From Natronospira proteinivora (lineage in GTDB: Bacteria; Pseudomonadota; Gammaproteobacteria; Natronospirales; Natronospiraceae), in the NCBI RefSeq assembly GCF_024170465.1, contig NZ_JALJYF010000001.1, positions 682,001 through 746,000 on the forward strand: 64,000 bases of DNA, given 5' to 3'. Every line of letters starts with the position of its first letter. Positions within the stretch are counted from its first letter, which is position 1. Under the pieces are notes generated by a model that was not told the DNA's origin, searched no databases, and saw only the letters and a program-made list of their open reading frames with translations. The position numbers and the translations under genes were made by a program. This document shows, piece after piece, positions 25,977-41,509 of the stretch.

Positions 25977-28859
25977 CTAGTCCCTGGAATCATCATCATT
26001 CTTGTGATTGTCACCATTGACGGATTCGGGCCGTTGCGGCTCCCGGGGTTTTTCTTGGGAATCTACCGGACGTCCCTGGCCCTGATCGGGGTTGCCTTTT
26101 CCGGATTCTGCCTTGCCGGCATTGTCATCGGATTGCTTGTCAGTGGCCGGGGCACTGTCGCGCTTTTCTTCACGCGGCTTGTTCCGCTGAGCTGGCGGCT
26201 CATCGGCCGTCGGCGTCCGATCGGCTACGGATTCCGATTTTGGCTTATTCTCCGGGGCTTGCTCCCGCGTCGGGCGTGCCTCCTGCTCTGGACCCGTGGC
26301 GGGCGAGGGTGTCTGAGTATCGGGCTGACCCCGTTCCTGGGATTTCAGGTTTTCCTTTTGCTGGGCCTCATAGGCGCGCTTGGTTTCTTCCAGGCGAGCC
26401 GCACGGGCCGCACTCAGGCGGCTTTCTTCCGCGTTGGTACCTTGATTGGGTCCTGACTCGGCGGGTTGATGTCGTTCCGGGCCATTGCCAGCGGTATTTG
26501 AGTCGCCACGGCTCTGGGCCTGGGATTGATCCCGTGCGGGTTTTTCAGCGGCCCGGTTCTGGTCTCGGTTCTGGTCTCGGTTCTGGTCTCGGTTCTGGTC
26601 TCGGTTCTGGTCTCGGTTCTGGTCTCGGTTCTGGTCTCGGTTCTGGTCCCGGTTCTGGTCCCGGTTCTGGTCCCGGTTCTGGTCCCGGTCCTGGCCCTGG
26701 CCCTGGCCCTGGCCCTGGTCCCGGTTTCGCTGACCACCGCGACGCCGACGGCCGCCGCGGCGGCCACGCCGGGTGCTTCGGCCGCCGCGACCGTCACCAC
26801 TCTTGCGTTGTTCATCGTCCTGGCGCTGCTCCGGCTTGCCATCGGTTTTCGAGACTTGACCGTCCGCATCGTCGCTCTTGCCTTTCTGCGGTTGGGCATC
26901 CTGAGGTTTGTTCTGGCGCTTGTCCGGGCCTGGCTTGTTGCCACTGGGCCTTGTCTGGCGGTCCCCGCCGTCTTCACGGTTGCCTCCACGGCGGCGACGG
27001 CCTCGGCCCCGACGGCCACGTCGGTTGCCACTGCCATCCGAGCGGCGCTTGTCACCGTCCTCGCGACGAGGCTCTCCTCGTTGCCCCCGCTGACGACGGG
27101 GCTGACGTTTGGACTTGTCTTGCTGCTCATCCCCGCTGCTGAACAGCCATTGCCACAGGCGGACCAGTAGCCCCGGCCCCTGGGGCGCTGCAACGGCCGT
27201 GGGTTTGGTTTTCTCACCATCGGCCGGGGTAGGGGCCGGACTGTCCGGTGCGATGCTCTTCACCGCCGGCGTTTCGCCCGAGGCGACCTTGCGGATTTCT
27301 CCCCGCTGATGGGGTTTCTTGATTTCTTCCTGTTCCTCGAAACGGATCTGGTAGCTGGCAGAGCTTTGACTGAGTTCGGTGACCTCGTCATGCCGCATTC
27401 TGTGGATGGTGTAGTCCGGGGTTTCCAGTTGCCGGTCCGGCACCAGCACCAGTTCTACCTTGCAGCGTTGTTCCACCTCGGCAATACGCTCCCGTTTCTC
27501 ATTGAGCAGGTAGGTGCCAACGTCCACCGGCAACTGGGCTACCACCCGTGCCGTATTCTCCTTCATCGCCTCTTCTTCCAGGATGCGGAGAATGGACAGC
27601 GCCAAGGAGTCCACGCTGCGGATCCGGCCTTCGCCCTTGCAGCGCGGGCAGATTTCCTGGCTCGATTCACCCAGTGACGGTTGCAGACGTTGGCGGGACA
27701 TTTCCAACAGCCCGAAGCGGGAAATGCGGCTGACTTGGACCCGGGCCCGGTCCATCTTCAAAGCATCACGAAGGCGTTGCTCCACATCCTTCTGGTGTTT
27801 GACGGGGCCCATATCGATGAAGTCGATCACCACCAGACCACCCATGTCGCGGATTCGCAGTTGACGCGCGATTTCGTCGGCGGCCTCGAGATTGGTGTTC
27901 AGCGCTGTCTCCTCGATATCGCCCCCCTTGGTGGCGCGAGCCGAGTTGATATCGATGGCAGTCAGGGCTTCGGTGTGGTCCAGCACCACCGAACCACCGG
28001 ATGGCAGGCGCACCTCCCGGGTAAAGGCCGATTCGATCTGGCTTTCAATCTGATAGCGGGTGAACAGGGGAACGTCATCGTCGTAATGCTTGAGCTTGTC
28101 CAGGTTGTGGGGCATGACCTGGGCCATGAAGTTATGCGCTTCCTGGTAGATTTCGGGGCTGTCCACCAGGATTTCACCAACGTCCGTACGCAAATAATCA
28201 CGGATGCAGCGGATAATGACATTGCTTTCCTGGTAAATCAGGAAGGGGGCCTTCTTTTCTTCCGCCGCCTGTTCAATGGCGCGCCAGACCTGGAGCAGAT
28301 AATCCAGGTCCCATTGCAATTCCTCGGTGCTGCGACCGACACCCGCCGTACGAACGATCACCCCCATGCCTTCGGGGATGTTCATTTCACTCATGGCCTT
28401 GCGCACTTCCGCCCGGTCGTCCCCTTCGATGCGGCGGGAAACGCCACCGGCCCGGGGATTATTGGGCATGAGCACCAGGAAACGGCCCGCCAGACTGATG
28501 AAAGTGGTCAGGGCGGCGCCCTTGTTGCCGCGTTCTTCCTTGTCCACCTGGACCACCACTTCCTGACCTTCCTGAATGGCGTCCTTGATGTTGACTCGGC
28601 CAGGATTGTCTCCGGTTTCGCCCTTGAAGTAGCCGCGGGCAATTTCCTTGAGAGGGAGAAAACCGTGCCGCTGGGCGCCGAAATCGACGAAGGCGGCTTC
28701 CAGGCTGGGTTCCACCCGGGTGACCTTGCCCTTGTAGACATTGGCCTTTTTCTGTTCCCGGGAAAGGACTTCGATATCCAGGTCGTAGAGGCGTTGGCCG
28801 TCCACCATGGCCACGCGCAACTCTTCCGGTTGAGTTGCGTTAATTAGCATTCTTTTCAT
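25977..28859 (-). CDS. rne: Ribonuclease E
   Basis: A 960-residue endoribonuclease, the core of the RNA degradosome. The catalytic half (about residues 1-515) starts with [22 protein letters not shown], nearly as in E. coli. It holds the S1 domain (about 36-125), catalytic aspartates in [12 protein letters not shown] and VVIDFIDMG, and the zinc-link CPRCKGEGR. The second half is disordered and highly charged: arginine-rich RNA-binding stretches ([14 protein letters not shown]), an 11-copy DQNR repeat and a Pro/Glu/Lys-rich tail. The 502-bp divergent region to rluC should include the autoregulatory leader known from E. coli. Confidence 0.97.
26557..26724. repeat. 12-bp tandem repeat inside rne (DQNR repeats)
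   Basis: Eleven exact-length 12-bp units run from 26557 to 26688. The first seven read TTCTGGTCTCGG on the plus strand and the next four TTCTGGTCCCGG. A decayed tail follows (26689-26724) with CCTGGC-type units encoding Gln-Gly and Asp-Arg. In the rne frame each unit encodes Asp-Gln-Asn-Arg. The two homogeneous blocks point to recent slippage or unequal crossing-over, and the period is a multiple of three so the frame is kept. Confidence 0.97.
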
Positions 28860-34736: not shown

Positions 34737-35561
34737 TTACAAACGTTCCTGTTCTCGCTCCCGGGTAGCCGGGATATCCGTGGGCACGGTTATCTCCAGC
34801 TCCGCACCATCCCGCCAGATGGTTAAAGTGGCCGAATCACCGGCTGCCCGGATCGCATCCAGAAAGGCCAGTGGGCTATCCGGCCTGACCTCATCCACCG
34901 CCAGAATGAGGTCACCAGGTTGGATCCCCTGGTCGGCCGCAGCCCCTTCCACACGACTCACCAGCATGCCTTCGTCTTCCGGCAGTTCCAGTTCCTGGCG
35001 CAATTCGCTGTCAGCCGCGACGACGGTAATGCCGGCGGCCCGTACCACATCCTGTGAGCCTTCCGGAGCTTCGAAATCGAAGTCCAGATCGGCTCGTAGA
35101 ATCTTGCGCGTGACTTCGATGCGCGACCCCGTTCGCACAGCCAGTGCCAGCCCGTCGCTGGGGCGGCTGTCCACCCGGATGTTGTCTTCCCCCGACCGGG
35201 ATAGCAAGAGCCGCCCATGATAGGTGCCGTTTCTCAGATCGTGGACCTGGAGGGCCTCCAGTTGGGCATCCAGGGATTGGATGGTGTTGGCCAAGAGATC
35301 ATGGGTCATGGGGCGTGGTGCATCCACCTCGTGCAGGCCTTGAAGAATGGCCTGGGCTTCCACCACGCCAATGAAGATGGGGACCACCTCTCCGGATTCC
35401 GGCTCCCGCAGTAGGGCCACGGGGGTTCCGGACTGTCGGTCCAGGCCAACGGTGGATAACTCCACGGTCACCAGCTCATCGTCCTCTTCCGAGGCAGCAT
35501 GTCCGAACACGAGGAGCCCGGCCAGACTAAGGGTGAGCAGGGCGAGCAGGGCAGGTCGCAT
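34737..35561 (-). CDS. Exported bifunctional-nuclease (DUF151) protein with C-terminal PDZ domain
   Basis: A 274-residue protein with a signal peptide (about residues 1-22, ending FGHAA), a DUF151/BFN domain (about 28-155) and a PDZ domain (about 185-262). The BFN part shows VPIFIGVVEAQAILQGL, RPMTHDLLANTI and IRVDSRPSDGLALAVRTGSRIEV, all typical of this family. The PDZ domain has GAAADQGIQPGDLILAVDEV. BFN proteins characterised in plants have nuclease activity, and most bacterial ones are cytoplasmic, so export plus PDZ is unusual. The gene follows gspF on the same strand after a 112-bp gap. A GGAGG lies 8 nt before the ATG. Confidence 0.85.
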   Translation of the reverse strand: MRPALLALLTLSLAGLLVFGHAASEEDDELVTVELSTVGLDRQSGTPVALLREPESGEVVPIFIGVVEAQAILQGLHEVDAPRPMTHDLLANTIQSLDAQLEALQVHDLRNGTYHGRLLLSRSGEDNIRVDSRPSDGLALAVRTGSRIEVTRKILRADLDFDFEAPEGSQDVVRAAGITVVAADSELRQELELPEDEGMLVSRVEGAAADQGIQPGDLILAVDEVRPDSPLAFLDAIRAAGDSATLTIWRDGAELEITVPTDIPATREREQERL

Positions 35562-35673: not shown

Positions 35674-36912
35674 TCAGGCGACCATGCGATTGAGATCCAG
35701 AATGGGCATCATCAGGGCCAGGACAATCATCAGCACAATCACGGCCATTACCATGATCAGAATGGGCTGAAGCAGCGACATAAGGGTGCTAGTCAGGGAT
35801 TCCATTTCCCATTCCTGGTTACTGGCGGCCCGTTCCAGCATCTCCTCCAGTTCCCCCGAGGTTTCGCCACTGCGTATCAAGTGGATGGTCATGGGTGGGA
35901 ACAGGCGACTGGCCTGCAGGGAGCGGCCAATGGGAGCCCCCTCCCTGACTCGGTTGGTGGCTTCGGCGATGGCATCGCGCATGGGTAGATTGCTGACTAC
36001 CTCGCCGGAAATGCGCATGGAATCCAGCACTGGGACACCACTGCCGGCGAGAATGCTCAAGGTGCGGGCGAATCGGGCGGTGTTGAAGCCGCGGGTGATA
36101 CGACCGATCAGCGGCAGGGTCAGCAGGAAACGGTGGTATTTTCGTTTTGGTCCTTCCCGTTGAAGGATCCGCTGACCAATGTAGTAAGCCGCCCCCAGTA
36201 TGAGAATCAGCCAGATACCGTTCTCCTGGAGAAAGTCACTGCTGTTGATCATGATCTGGGTGAGCTGGGGTAGTTCCTGTCCGGTGTCTTCGAAGACCTC
36301 AACCACCTGGGGCACCACATGAACCAGGAGGCCCACCACGATCAGTGCTGCGACCACGGTGAGTACAATGGGGTAGACCATGGCCTGGGACAATTTCTGG
36401 TGCAGTTTCTGGCGGCTCTCGGTATATTCCGCCAGCCGCCCAAGAACACTGTCCAGGTGACCGGACTGTTCCCCCGCAGCCACCGTGGAACGGTAGATTT
36501 CAGGAAAAGCCTGGGGGAATTCGGCCAAACCATCCGCCAGGCTATGGCCTTCCATGACGCGAGATCGGACGGCCATGAGGATACTCTTGACCCGAGGTTT
36601 TTCCGATTGCTCGGCCACCGCGCTGACGGCTTCTTCCAGGGGCAGGCCGGAGCGAATCAATGTGGCCAGCTGCCGGGTCAGCAGGGCCAGGTCCCCGGCG
36701 TTGATGCCCCGTCCGAATCGAACCGCCGGCCGCGTGTATTGCGATTTGCCATCGCGGCCTTTGGGCTTACCGCCGGCCACCTCCGCCACATCCAGAGGAG
36801 TCAGGCGCTGTTCTCGCAGCTGTTGGCGGATATGGCGGGCGGTATCGCCTTCCAGCACACCTTTTTTCTGTTTGCCCTGGGGGTCAAGCGCGGTGTATTC
36901 AAAGGCGCCCAT
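35674..36912 (-). CDS. gspF: Type II secretion inner-membrane platform protein GspF
   Basis: A 412-residue polytopic platform protein that couples the secretion ATPase to pseudopilus assembly. It has the family start [18 protein letters not shown] and two GspF repeats (about residues 75-200 and 275-400) with three membrane helices. Conserved segments are LPLEEAVSAVAEQSEKP and IGRSLQASRLFPPMTIHLIRSGETSGELEEMLERAA. Its ATG overlaps the gspE stop by one base. The secretion identity follows from gspC, gspD and gspE upstream. Confidence 0.95.
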   Translation of the reverse strand: MGAFEYTALDPQGKQKKGVLEGDTARHIRQQLREQRLTPLDVAEVAGGKPKGRDGKSQYTRPAVRFGRGINAGDLALLTRQLATLIRSGLPLEEAVSAVAEQSEKPRVKSILMAVRSRVMEGHSLADGLAEFPQAFPEIYRSTVAAGEQSGHLDSVLGRLAEYTESRQKLHQKLSQAMVYPIVLTVVAALIVVGLLVHVVPQVVEVFEDTGQELPQLTQIMINSSDFLQENGIWLILILGAAYYIGQRILQREGPKRKYHRFLLTLPLIGRITRGFNTARFARTLSILAGSGVPVLDSMRISGEVVSNLPMRDAIAEATNRVREGAPIGRSLQASRLFPPMTIHLIRSGETSGELEEMLERAASNQEWEMESLTSTLMSLLQPILIMVMAVIVLMIVLALMMPILDLNRMVA

Positions 36913-38495
36913 CAGTCTTCCCGTGTTACCCGAACAACTTCTTCGATGGTGGTTTCCCCGGCCAGAATCTTGCGACGACCGTCATCCCGAATGCTGGGGC
37001 TCAGCTTGCGGGCGTAGGCTTCCAGGTCTTGCTCGGCGCTGCCGTCATGGATCATGGTACGCATGCGATCATCGACGGGTACCAGCTCATAGATACCCAT
37101 CCGGCCACGGTAGCCGGCATGGTTGCAGGCTTCACAGCCCTGGGGTTTGTAAAGTGTCAGGGGCTCGTTGGCCGGAAAGCCCAGCATCTCCCGTTCCCGC
37201 TGTTCCGGCTGGTAACCGGTTTTGCACTCGGGGCAGAGCTTTCGCACCAGGCGTTGGGCCGCGAGACCCAGCAAGGAAGATGAGAGCAGAAAGGGTTCCA
37301 CACCCATGTCCCGAAGCCTGGCCACTGCACCGACCGCGGTATTGGTGTGCAGGGTGGAGAGTACCAGGTGACCGGTAAGACTGGCCTGGACCGCAATCTC
37401 GGCGGTTTCAAGGTCACGAATCTCACCTACCATCACTACATCCGGATCCTGACGCAGAATGGCGCGAAGTCCACGGGCAAAGGTCATGTCCACCTTGGTA
37501 CTCACCTGGGTCTGGCCAATACCATCCAGGTAATACTCAATGGGATCCTCCACCGTCATGATGTTTCGACTGGTCTCGTTGAGCCGGGTAAGACTGGCGT
37601 AGAGGGTTGTGGTTTTACCCGAGCCGGTGGGCCCGGTAACCAGGATAATCCCATGGGGTTTGTGGATGAGCTCGTCCATCAATGCCTGGGCCTTGGATTC
37701 CATGCCCAGGTGGTCCAGGTTCAGCCGGCCTGCCTGCTTGTCCAGCAAGCGCAGCACCACTCGCTCCCCGTGTCCGGAGGGCAGGGTGGACACACGCACA
37801 TCCACGGCGCGACCAGCCACCCGCAGGGAGATTCGGCCATCCTGGGGAATCCGTTTCTCGGCAATGTCCAGCTTGGCCATCACCTTGACCCGGGATACCA
37901 GAAGGGGTGCCACCGCCCGTTTTGAGGTGAGTGCCTCACGCAGAACCCCGTCCACCCGGAATCGGACAACCAGGCGGTTTTCGAAGGGTTCAATGTGAAT
38001 ATCCGAGGCGCTTTCCTTGACCGCTTCGGTGAGTAGTGCGTTGATCAGGCGGATGATAGGGGCATCATCATCCGCCTCCAATAGATCCTCGGGTTCCGGT
38101 AGGGACAGGGCGACGCTGTTAAGGTCCACGTCGTCTTCCAGGCCCTCCATCATCTGGGTGGCCGAGTTGGCGTCTTCGTAGGCTTGCTGAAGGATCTGGT
38201 CGAATTCCTCTCCCGAGACCTTGCGCAGGGCCAGGCCAACACCCGCGAAGCGGCGCACTTCAGCCAGGGAAGCCGGGCTCAAATTAGGCCGGCAGATCAG
38301 CTCGGTACGGCCGTCATCCAGCGTTTCACCAAGCAATACCCCGTGGCGGCGGGCAAAGGCAAAGGGCAGGCGACGATGGTCGTCTGCCTCACTCATCATT
38401 TCGCCGTCATCACTGCCTGAAACCGATGCCTCACCACCCTCGAATTGGCTGGCCAGGCGATCGGTTTCCTCGTTTAATGGGTTACTGCTCGCCAT
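36912..38495 (-). CDS. gspE: Type II secretion ATPase GspE
   Basis: A 527-residue hexameric ATPase that drives pseudopilus growth. The N1E-like domain (about residues 35-125) precedes the ATPase with Walker [15 protein letters not shown], the Asp box ESGVEDPIEY-type region ([13 protein letters not shown]), Walker [15 protein letters not shown] and the zinc-binding tetracysteine CPECK...CEACN in the C-terminal third. The start at 38495 ([10 protein letters not shown]) lies 14 nt inside the end of gspD. A longer in-frame start upstream would run into gspD coding and is rejected. Confidence 0.96.
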
Positions 38496-40533
38496 TGCCG
38501 GCTTCGTCCTCATCTTCCAGGTCGAGATGGGGGGCGCGTCCACGGGTGCGTCCCTCATCATCATGGTGGGGGGTGCGGCGGAACTGTTCCAGGGGTTCCA
38601 GCCGGGGCCGTTCAACACCGTGAACCCGAGGCACCCGGTCCGTATCCCCTTCCTGGAGATCGCGCATGCGGGTGTATTTGGCCTCGGTGTAGTGTCGGGC
38701 ATCGTCCGGCCCCCGCAAAATCATGGGCTTGAGAAAGACCATGAGATTACGTTTCTCCGAGTCGGTGCTGGTACTCTTGAAGAGGTTGCCCAGTACCGGG
38801 ATGCTGCCCAGGATCGGGACGCGCTGCTCCTGTTCCCGGAGTTGTTCGTCGATCAGGCCGCCCAACACGATGACTTCACCATCTTCCACAATCACTCGGG
38901 TGTTGATGGCACGGCGGTTGGTGATCAGGTCGGCCGCACCACTGACGCCACCGGCAATGCTGGAGACTTCCTGTTCGATATCCAGAAATACGGCATCCCC
39001 TTCGTTGATTCTTGGTGTGATCTTGAGGGTAATGCCTACGTCTTCCCGTTGAATGGTCTGGAAGGGGTTGACCATGCCAGCTCCACCGCCAGGCTGCTGT
39101 CCATCGCGCTGGTCACCCCGTTGGCCGCCACCACCCACATTGGAGTAGCTACCGGTCAGGAAGGGGACCTGCTGACCAACGGTGATTTCCGCCTCTTCAT
39201 TGTCCATAGTGAGCAGTGTCGGGGTGGAGAGGATATTGGTCTTGGAATCACCCGCCAGGGCTCGAAACAAGGCGGCGAAGTCCAGGCCGCCGGCACGGGT
39301 GCGGCCCAGGCCAAAGACCAGCCCGTCACCCATGGACTGGAGGGCCTGCTCAGAGGCCCCGGCGGCAGCCGCGCCACCGATGGTGCCGATATCGGCACCG
39401 GACTGGGGGAAGCGGGTCAGGCCGAAGGGATTGGAACCATCCTCATCCATGGCTGCCCAGGTCACGCCCAACTCACCGGTCCGGTCTTCACTGACTTCCA
39501 CGATGATGGCTTCCACCAGTACCTGAGCCCGGCGGATATCCAGCTTTTCGATCACCGAGGTGATTTCCCGCATCTGTCGCGGCGGTGCGGTGAGGACCAG
39601 GGAGTTGGTGCCTTCATCGGCGACGATGCTGACGCGGTCCTCATCCCGTTCGCTGGCCCCATCCTCCACATGGCTGCGCAAGACATCTGCCATGGTGGTG
39701 GCATCGGAGTAATGCAGGTAATGGACCTTGGAGTTTCCGCCTTCCTCCATGGGGGTGTCGAGATGGGAAATCAGGGCCCGCATGCGCAGGCGGTCCGAGC
39801 TGGCCCCCCCCAGCAACACGCTGTTGCTGCGTTCATCCGCCACCAGGCTCAGCGGGGCACTGCCATCACCCCGGTCCCGACGTTCCATGGAGCTCAGGAC
39901 CCGAACCACTTCATTGGCGGAGGCGTGTTCCAGACGGATGACCTCGATTTCATCGTCCTTGGCTCGGTCAATGCGGTTAATCAGCTGACGAACCCTTTCA
40001 ATATTGGCGCGCCGGTCCGCGATCACAATCATATTGGACACATTGACAGCCGCCAAGTGTGAATGCTGGGGTACCAGTGGTCGGAGAATGGGGACCAGCT
40101 GAGCTGCCGGCACATGTTCGAGCTCGATGACCCGGGTCTCGATCTCGTCACTGAACTCGCCGTCGGACAGGCTCAGTTCTCCACCCGGCATCTGGCGGGC
40201 ATCGGAGGAAGGGACGATCTTGACGGTATTGCCGCTTTCCATGGCGGCGAAGCCATGTACCTGAAGAATGGACAGGAAAGTATCGTAGACCGCTTCCGGG
40301 GGAATCGCTCGTGACGAGGTGACGGTAATTCGTCCCTTCACCCGGGGGTCAACGATGAAGTTGCGACCCGTGACCTCGGAAATGGAATTGGCCACCTCCC
40401 GGATATCCGCTTCCTTGTAGTTGAGGGTGACCTCTTCGGCCCAAGCGAGAGACATGCTCAACAGCAGGAGTAATGCCACGCCTAGACTACGAGCGGAAAA
40501 CGATGAACAATGGAATGTCGCCTTGTCAGTCAT
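38482..40533 (-). CDS. gspD: Type II secretion outer-membrane secretin GspD
   Basis: A 683-residue secretin that forms the outer-membrane channel. It has a signal peptide (about 1-28, ending SLAWA), an N0 domain with [30 protein letters not shown]1 to N3 domains to about residue 340, and the secretin domain. This ends with [32 protein letters not shown], a signature of GspD. A Gly/Gln-rich insertion ([16 protein letters not shown]) lies in the secretin region. The last 70 residues are acidic and carry no recognisable S-domain pattern. The ATG at 40533 lacks a clear ribosome-binding site; a TTG 12 nt upstream is possible. Confidence 0.95.
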
Positions 40534-40585
40534 GGGTATGTCCAATGTCGAAAATCAGTATCCTGGTTCGGTGCCGCAGCATTCA

Positions 40586-41509
40586 TTAGTCCAGGGAGAT
40601 AGTGACCTGTATTTCCCGGCCACCTCGCTGAATGGTCAGTTCTACCGATGAGGCATCTTGCAGGTCATTCATTAATTGCATGCCTGCTGCGGGAGAATCC
40701 AGATTCTGGCCATCGACCGCAGTGACGATATCTCCAGCTCTCAAGTCCATGGCCTGAAAAGCCTCCCGCATGCTGCCGGGAAAAATACGAAAGCCCACCA
40801 TTTCTCCGTCCACATGATGGGGAGTCGGGCGAATAACATCGGTAATGCGTTCAGGGTCTTCTTGAATGGCCGAGCGTAGATCGGCCACCTCATCCGGCAC
40901 GGTAACCTCGCGGTCGTCCTGGTCGCCCCCGTCCCCATTGGCGCGTTGGCTCAGAGTCAAGCCCTCGTCATCGTCCCGTGGCAGGCGAAGGGTTTCCAGT
41001 TCACCGCCGCGCTCCAGAATGACCCGGTCCCGGTATATGGCCCGTACCGAGGCCCCTGAGCCGATACTGTCACCAACACTGTAGCTTTCATCATCGTCTG
41101 TGTCAGAGGCGATGATGGCTCGCGCCATTTCCGGGATCTCGGTGGCCAGTACCCCCCGCAGTTCCAGGTTCAGTTGGGTTTCCGGGGCATCCACTTCTGC
41201 CAGGTCCAGCTCCTGGGTTGGATCATCCTCAGGGTCCGGGTCCCCGAATACGGACTGGGCCAGCAACTGGTCCAGATCCGCGACACCCCGACCCTCTCCA
41301 TTGGCGTTCGCCGGTGATTGGGCGGGCGGGGCGGCGTCGGCGGCCTCGTCATTCAGGGGGATCAGCTTCCAGGTGGTATCCGCCAGGGCATAGGCAATGG
41401 CGATGACCAGGAGAAGGGAAACGAACACGGGGAGCCGTCGGCCCAGCCGTTGAAGCTGCTCCTGGTCCGGATTGCGCCACTGCGCGATATTGGCGAGTCG
41501 AAAAGCCAT
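40586..41509 (-). CDS. gspC: Type II secretion inner-membrane protein GspC
   Basis: A 307-residue bitopic protein linking the inner-membrane platform to the secretin. It has one membrane helix (about residues 28-46, VFVSLLLVIAIAYALA), an acidic linker, a homology region with LELRGVLATEIPEMARAIIA, and a C-terminal PDZ domain (about 225-305) with RAGDIVTAVDGQNLDSPA. The linkers are rich in Asp and Glu. It opens the gspC-D-E-F run; a 52-nt gap precedes gspD. A good promoter lies upstream. Confidence 0.9.
   Translation of the reverse strand: MAFRLANIAQWRNPDQEQLQRLGRRLPVFVSLLLVIAIAYALADTTWKLIPLNDEAADAAPPAQSPANANGEGRGVADLDQLLAQSVFGDPDPEDDPTQELDLAEVDAPETQLNLELRGVLATEIPEMARAIIASDTDDDESYSVGDSIGSGASVRAIYRDRVILERGGELETLRLPRDDDEGLTLSQRANGDGGDQDDREVTVPDEVADLRSAIQEDPERITDVIRPTPHHVDGEMVGFRIFPGSMREAFQAMDLRAGDIVTAVDGQNLDSPAAGMQLMNDLQDASSVELTIQRGGREIQVTISLD

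Follow-up and report, generated by a model that had tools for sequence, protein, structure and literature searches.

The locus studied here raises the question of whether a protein that joins a bifunctional nuclease (BFN, DUF151) domain to a PDZ domain, and that is encoded next to genes of the type II secretion system in Natronospira proteinivora, belongs to that secretion machinery. The window, which is the whole stretch of 64,000 nucleotides that was analysed, contains the BFN–PDZ gene at positions 34737–35561 of the minus strand, with an ATG at 35561, a GGAGG ribosome-binding sequence 8 nt upstream and the stop codon, included in this range, at 34737; the reading frame of 274 amino acids is further supported by Pfam matches and by orthologues. 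The gene is the last in the array gspC–gspD–gspE–gspF–BFN–PDZ, all on the minus strand. The position directly after gspF and on the same strand was as the original prediction had described it, and no promoter or terminator was predicted in the 112 nt gap between the two genes. The gsp genes were named by NCBIfam equivalog models, all of which scored above their cut-offs: gspF (35674–36912, minus strand; TIGR02120, 518 bits versus 424), gspE (36912–38702, minus strand; TIGR02533, 720.7 bits versus 630; the coordinates are those of the listed open reading frame), gspD (38482–40545, minus strand; TIGR02517, 568.7 bits versus 351) and gspC (40586–41509, minus strand; TIGR01713, 115.8 bits versus 101.6). 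Because the listed frame of gspE overlaps gspD, its real start is probably internal. The other flank of the BFN–PDZ gene is formed by the convergent genes plsX and fabH. Elsewhere in the window, an RNase E-like open reading frame (25977–28859) carries an in-frame DQNR repeat run in its C-terminal region.

The source genome encodes a single BFN domain. About 165 kb from gspCDEF it contains a second gsp cluster (L135:4942–10552, corresponding to G000:C1:888942–894552), in which GspG scored above cut-off and is followed by apparent gspH to gspN genes, read from the order and sequence of the open reading frames only. The type II system of this organism is thus split into two separate loci and looks complete.

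As had been claimed from the sequence, a signal-like segment, a BFN domain and a PDZ domain are present in one protein. The BFN domain (PF02577) was matched by Pfam at residues 50–157 (35091–35414, minus strand; 109.9 bits versus a cut-off of 27, E = 7.7e-32), the fold itself beginning from about residue 30. The PDZ domain spans residues ~172–262 (34776–35048, minus strand); PDZ_6 was matched at residues 205–250 (33 bits versus a cut-off of 27, E = 5.1e-8), and the same region also matches the HtrA/DegP model TIGR02037 at residues 176–265 (E = 8.8e-11). A trypsin-like protease domain was sought in the protein with Pfam and NCBIfam and was absent, only the PDZ region matching HtrA models. The signal-like sequence, residues 1 to ~22 (35496–35561, minus strand), consists of a hydrophobic segment followed by GHAAS. 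A signal-like hydrophobic N-terminus was present in 49 of the 51 family members examined, many of them ending in AxA-R-E, and the two exceptions, L083 and L099, have late start choices in the heuristic used; in L110, where the L083 gene is given an earlier start, more upstream sequence of the signal-like kind is present. The protein therefore appears, from its sequence, to be exported into the cell envelope through a Sec-type signal-like sequence. The most divergent relative within the same family of organisms (L077:2650–3495) has a possible lipobox, LLAC, and may be a lipoprotein, where the other copies of that family look soluble.

An AlphaFold model built with a 44-sequence alignment had a mean pLDDT of 87, with low values in the signal, linker and tail regions; the signal-like N-terminus was modelled as a lower-confidence helix apart from the fold. 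The top Foldseek match in the PDB was TM0160 of Thermotoga maritima (PDB entries 1sj5 and 1vjl), with TMt values of 0.83–0.87 and an r.m.s.d. of 1.7–2.5 Å, and the next matches were the PDZ structures of MamP and HtrA/DegP; phmmer matched the BFN domain to 1sj5/1vjl with an E value of 1e-21. According to Spraggon et al., as quoted in PMC7249048, the putative active site of TM0160 is formed by Asp115 and His58 together with Thr57 from the other subunit. These residues align with Asp136 (35154–35156, minus strand; in the motif DSRPSD), His87 and Thr86 (both in 35301–35306, minus strand) of the BFN–PDZ protein, which are invariant in all 44 aligned proteins and are putatively catalytic; Arg83, Pro84, Asp131, Arg133, Pro134 and Ser135 are likewise invariant. 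The PF02577 score, the TM0160 fold, the motifs RPxTHDL and DxRPSD and the Thr/His/Asp set together place the domain in the BFN family. In the PDZ region, Ala175-x-Gly177-Ile178-Thr179-Val180 is nearly invariant and resembles a ligand loop; we take it to be the counterpart of the carboxylate-binding loop of DegP. With a PDZ fold, such a loop and a signal-like sequence that predicts export, the protein groups with the envelope PDZ proteins. As judged from sequence and model, its PDZ domain is HtrA/MamP-like and not specifically GspC-like.

The C-terminus forms a further conserved element, one that the original prediction had not mentioned. Between the last PDZ strand and a conserved end lies a linker of variable length and sequence, and the final residue is Val, Leu, Ala, Thr or Met in 50 of the 51 family members. 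Among the 42 proteins whose tail could be cut, which are not independent sequences, 33 end in Φ-x-Φ-COOH, versus 1 of 408 internal tail positions; this ending recurs in the families f109, f173 and others despite their differing linkers. It matches the pattern of class II PDZ ligands. Such a tail suggests either self-plugging of the PDZ domain or docking on HtrA-type partners. In the family of N. proteinivora (f1) the tails read xE[RT]L and lack the hydrophobic residue of position −2, and the source protein ends in QERL-COOH (tail at 34740–34775, minus strand), so that the self-ligand idea applies less there, and the lineage linked to gsp genes differs in exactly this feature; deviations also occur in the f124 copies and in some others. 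In the monomer model the tail is undocked and disordered (pLDDT below 50 at residues 264–274), which neither supports nor excludes self-plugging.

The fusion was found in six gammaproteobacterial families, designated f1, f109, f124, f158, f173 and f180. In a sample drawn evenly from the class, 11 of 369 genomes had BFN domains, as did 3 of 398 genomes in a sample of the phylum. The six families contain 87 BFN-positive genomes: all four genomes of f1, all three of f158, 28 of 47 in the order of f109 (all of one genus), 49 of 275 in f173 (in 8 of 24 genera), two in f124 and one in f180. A BFN domain followed by a PDZ region was present in the 51 sequences that were inspected in full, the f180 copy being cut by a contig end. 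The remaining carriers in f109 and f173 are known as open frames, mostly of about 290 residues or more (exceptions, 207 and 239 residues), and are presumed to encode the fusion as well. Two other gammaproteobacteria (L075 and L076) encode BFN-only proteins without a signal sequence or PDZ domain. One scan of the contigs of named genomes gave for the most part PDZ-only matches, from Devosia and others, and no BFN–PDZ protein, and a plasmid search returned ordinary BFN proteins only. One candidate relative (L051, 29% identity over residues 42–261) was rejected as an HtrA-like protease without a BFN domain. The fusion is patchily distributed within the Gammaproteobacteria.

In the three other genomes of f1, orthologues with 54–69% identity occupy the same place, between gspF and fabH, with gaps of roughly 80–105 nt after gspF, and the adjacency is therefore not due to chance. 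The conserved block in this family comprises a CHASE2 gene, gspC–F, the BFN–PDZ gene, fabH and plsX. In a congener, clpS- and clpA-like open reading frames lie past the CHASE2 gene in the same block (L079:893–1225 and 2–835). Since the whole surrounding block is conserved, the adjacency in four of four genomes is also explained by shared descent. Outside f1, the stretches of 13–20 kb that surround the gene contained no gspC–F homologue (at an E value of 1e-4) in f109, f124, f158 or f173; the f180 contig, at 5 kb, is too short to judge. The neighbours sampled outside f1 encode phosphoglucose isomerase, glycogen synthase, peroxiredoxin, short-chain dehydrogenases, CorA and GGDEF proteins. In L104, L068 and L110 a short-chain dehydrogenase is encoded close by; it was considered as a possible linkage and rejected, these family members being divergent and the positions different. 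The original prediction had named in advance, as the finding that would count against it, the same architecture scattered without gsp linkage, and this is what the search found: the fusion occurs in at least five other families and is unlinked in the four that could be judged, linkage being confined to f1 (4/4).

The presence of GspD in the genomes that carry the fusion gave the same answer. GspD above cut-off was absent from 44 of the 49 f173 carriers, where scoring covered no more than the best four candidates of each genome, and from 12 of the 28 f109 carriers, all 12 of which are at least 96% complete; with the same limit for f173, this amounts to 56 of 77 carriers in the two families. No positive association between the fusion and GspD was found, with Fisher odds ratios of 0.60 (p = 0.38) and 0.36 (p = 0.21) for f173 and f109 (best four candidates per genome in f173), the p values being descriptive only as the genomes are related. 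The many carriers of the fusion that lack the machine are decisive against a general type II role, and both linkage and co-occurrence lead us to reject a type II secretion component as the general role of the protein. The BFN–PDZ protein is probably not part of the type II machine, and its place beside gspF is peculiar to one family, the simplest explanation being that the gene block was inherited as a whole from a common ancestor.

A connection with type II secretion that is specific to the f1 lineage may exist. In this reading, the protein would be a periplasmic helper co-expressed with gspCDEF, its PDZ domain contacting GspC, GspD or substrates. The immediate succession of gspF and the BFN–PDZ gene on one strand in all four f1 genomes, the gap sizes given above, the negative promoter and terminator prediction in the window and the apparently complete system with gspG–N elsewhere are consistent with this, as is the presence of a PDZ domain in GspC, which had been pointed out in the original prediction and which Pfam also recovered in the neighbouring gspC product. 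GspC is a periplasmic protein with a PDZ domain, and its gene lies in the same cluster, but it is membrane-anchored and has its own T2SSC domain, and its PDZ domain is only weakly similar to that of the BFN–PDZ protein. Given the four families without gsp linkage, the many near-complete genomes with the fusion and without GspD, the HtrA-like PDZ domain and the synteny of the whole f1 block, we regard an accessory role as unlikely even within f1. In another reading, the protein would itself be a type II substrate, a secreted nuclease that digests extracellular DNA and RNA. Its signal-like sequence, the gsp neighbour in f1 and the apparently complete type II system argue for this, whereas the many carriers without GspD argue against it, the PDZ ligand loop and conserved tail suggest an interactor within the envelope and the possible lipobox in L077 points to membrane anchoring; among the readings considered, this is the least probable. 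The related idea that the PDZ domain guides a nuclease to the type II machinery is not supported either, given the carriers without GspD and the HtrA/MamP-like PDZ domain.

Of the closest known proteins, TM0160 has the same fold, with 34–35% identity in the structural alignment, and retains the Thr/His/Asp site, but its solved chain has no PDZ domain and its function is not established. The HtrA/DegP family and MamP are envelope proteins with the same type of PDZ domain, but neither contains a BFN domain: the PDZ domain is accompanied by a serine protease domain in HtrA and by cytochrome domains in MamP. The plant BBD proteins (OmBBD, AtBBD1 and AtBBD2; DUF151–UVR) also join a BFN domain to an interaction module; they are nuclear, cytoplasmic or plastid proteins with HCR and UVR regions, whereas the BFN–PDZ protein looks exported and has a PDZ domain. 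They have DNase and RNase activity in vitro (PMC7249048), an activity that is partly independent of metals and in tension with a report of DNA binding (PMC7249048). In the literature searched, demonstrated nuclease activity was found for plant members only and for no bacterial BFN member. The same literature, with partial coverage, yielded no paper that brings together a bifunctional nuclease, PDZ and type II secretion, and none on DUF151 with PDZ, although domain databases may list the architecture. As far as this search goes, the exported BFN–PDZ fusion is uncharacterised, in agreement with the original prediction, whose author knew of no characterised protein built in this way.

The explanation that we favour, at roughly even chances, is that this is an uncharacterised exported envelope protein in which the BFN domain acts on a nucleic acid or phosphoester under the control of the PDZ domain, and that it does not belong to type II secretion as a general component. 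The protein would be exported through its Sec-type signal-like sequence to the periplasm or envelope and would work there as a homodimer, by analogy with other BFN proteins, of which TM0160 and Rv1829 are reported to be homodimeric (PMC7249048). The BFN domain, possibly a nuclease, would have nucleic acid or a related phosphoester as its substrate, and the PDZ domain would bind C-terminal peptides, from its own tail or that of a partner, and so control where or when the BFN domain acts. This explanation is weakened by other BFN proteins that are reported as interaction partners of proteins (CLPC1, CheA), by analogy with which the BFN domain of the fusion may be non-catalytic. The plastid DUF151–UVR proteins, which are highly enriched with a CLPC1 trap, may link clients to plastid CLPC, and an archaeal DUF151 protein bound CheA; together with the HtrA-type PDZ domain and the Φ-x-Φ-COOH tail, these proteins suggest a non-catalytic envelope adaptor, in which BFN would serve for binding and the PDZ domain and tail would link clients to a protease of the HtrA type or to a different PDZ protein. 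We consider such an adaptor rather doubtful: the invariance of the putative active-site residues is unexpected in a pure scaffold, and a conserved protease neighbour was not seen in the gene surroundings sampled. A more specific form of the favoured explanation, that of an envelope nuclease, is very unlikely as it stands. Here, the C-terminal tail would occupy the PDZ groove of its own or the neighbouring subunit and switch the enzyme, until a competing C-terminus, for example that of a misfolded outer membrane protein, frees it; if true, this would be a peptide-gated nuclease in the periplasm.

In conclusion, the BFN–PDZ protein is a real, well conserved and apparently exported fusion and is not a new kind of system, and its likely misreading as a secretion component is corrected here. 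BFN proteins are ancient and widespread, and what the domain does in bacteria is not settled. A form that is widely distributed and apparently exported, and in which the proposed active site is intact, would place the domain outside the cytoplasm, and the attached peptide-binding PDZ domain predicts how BFN could be targeted or regulated.
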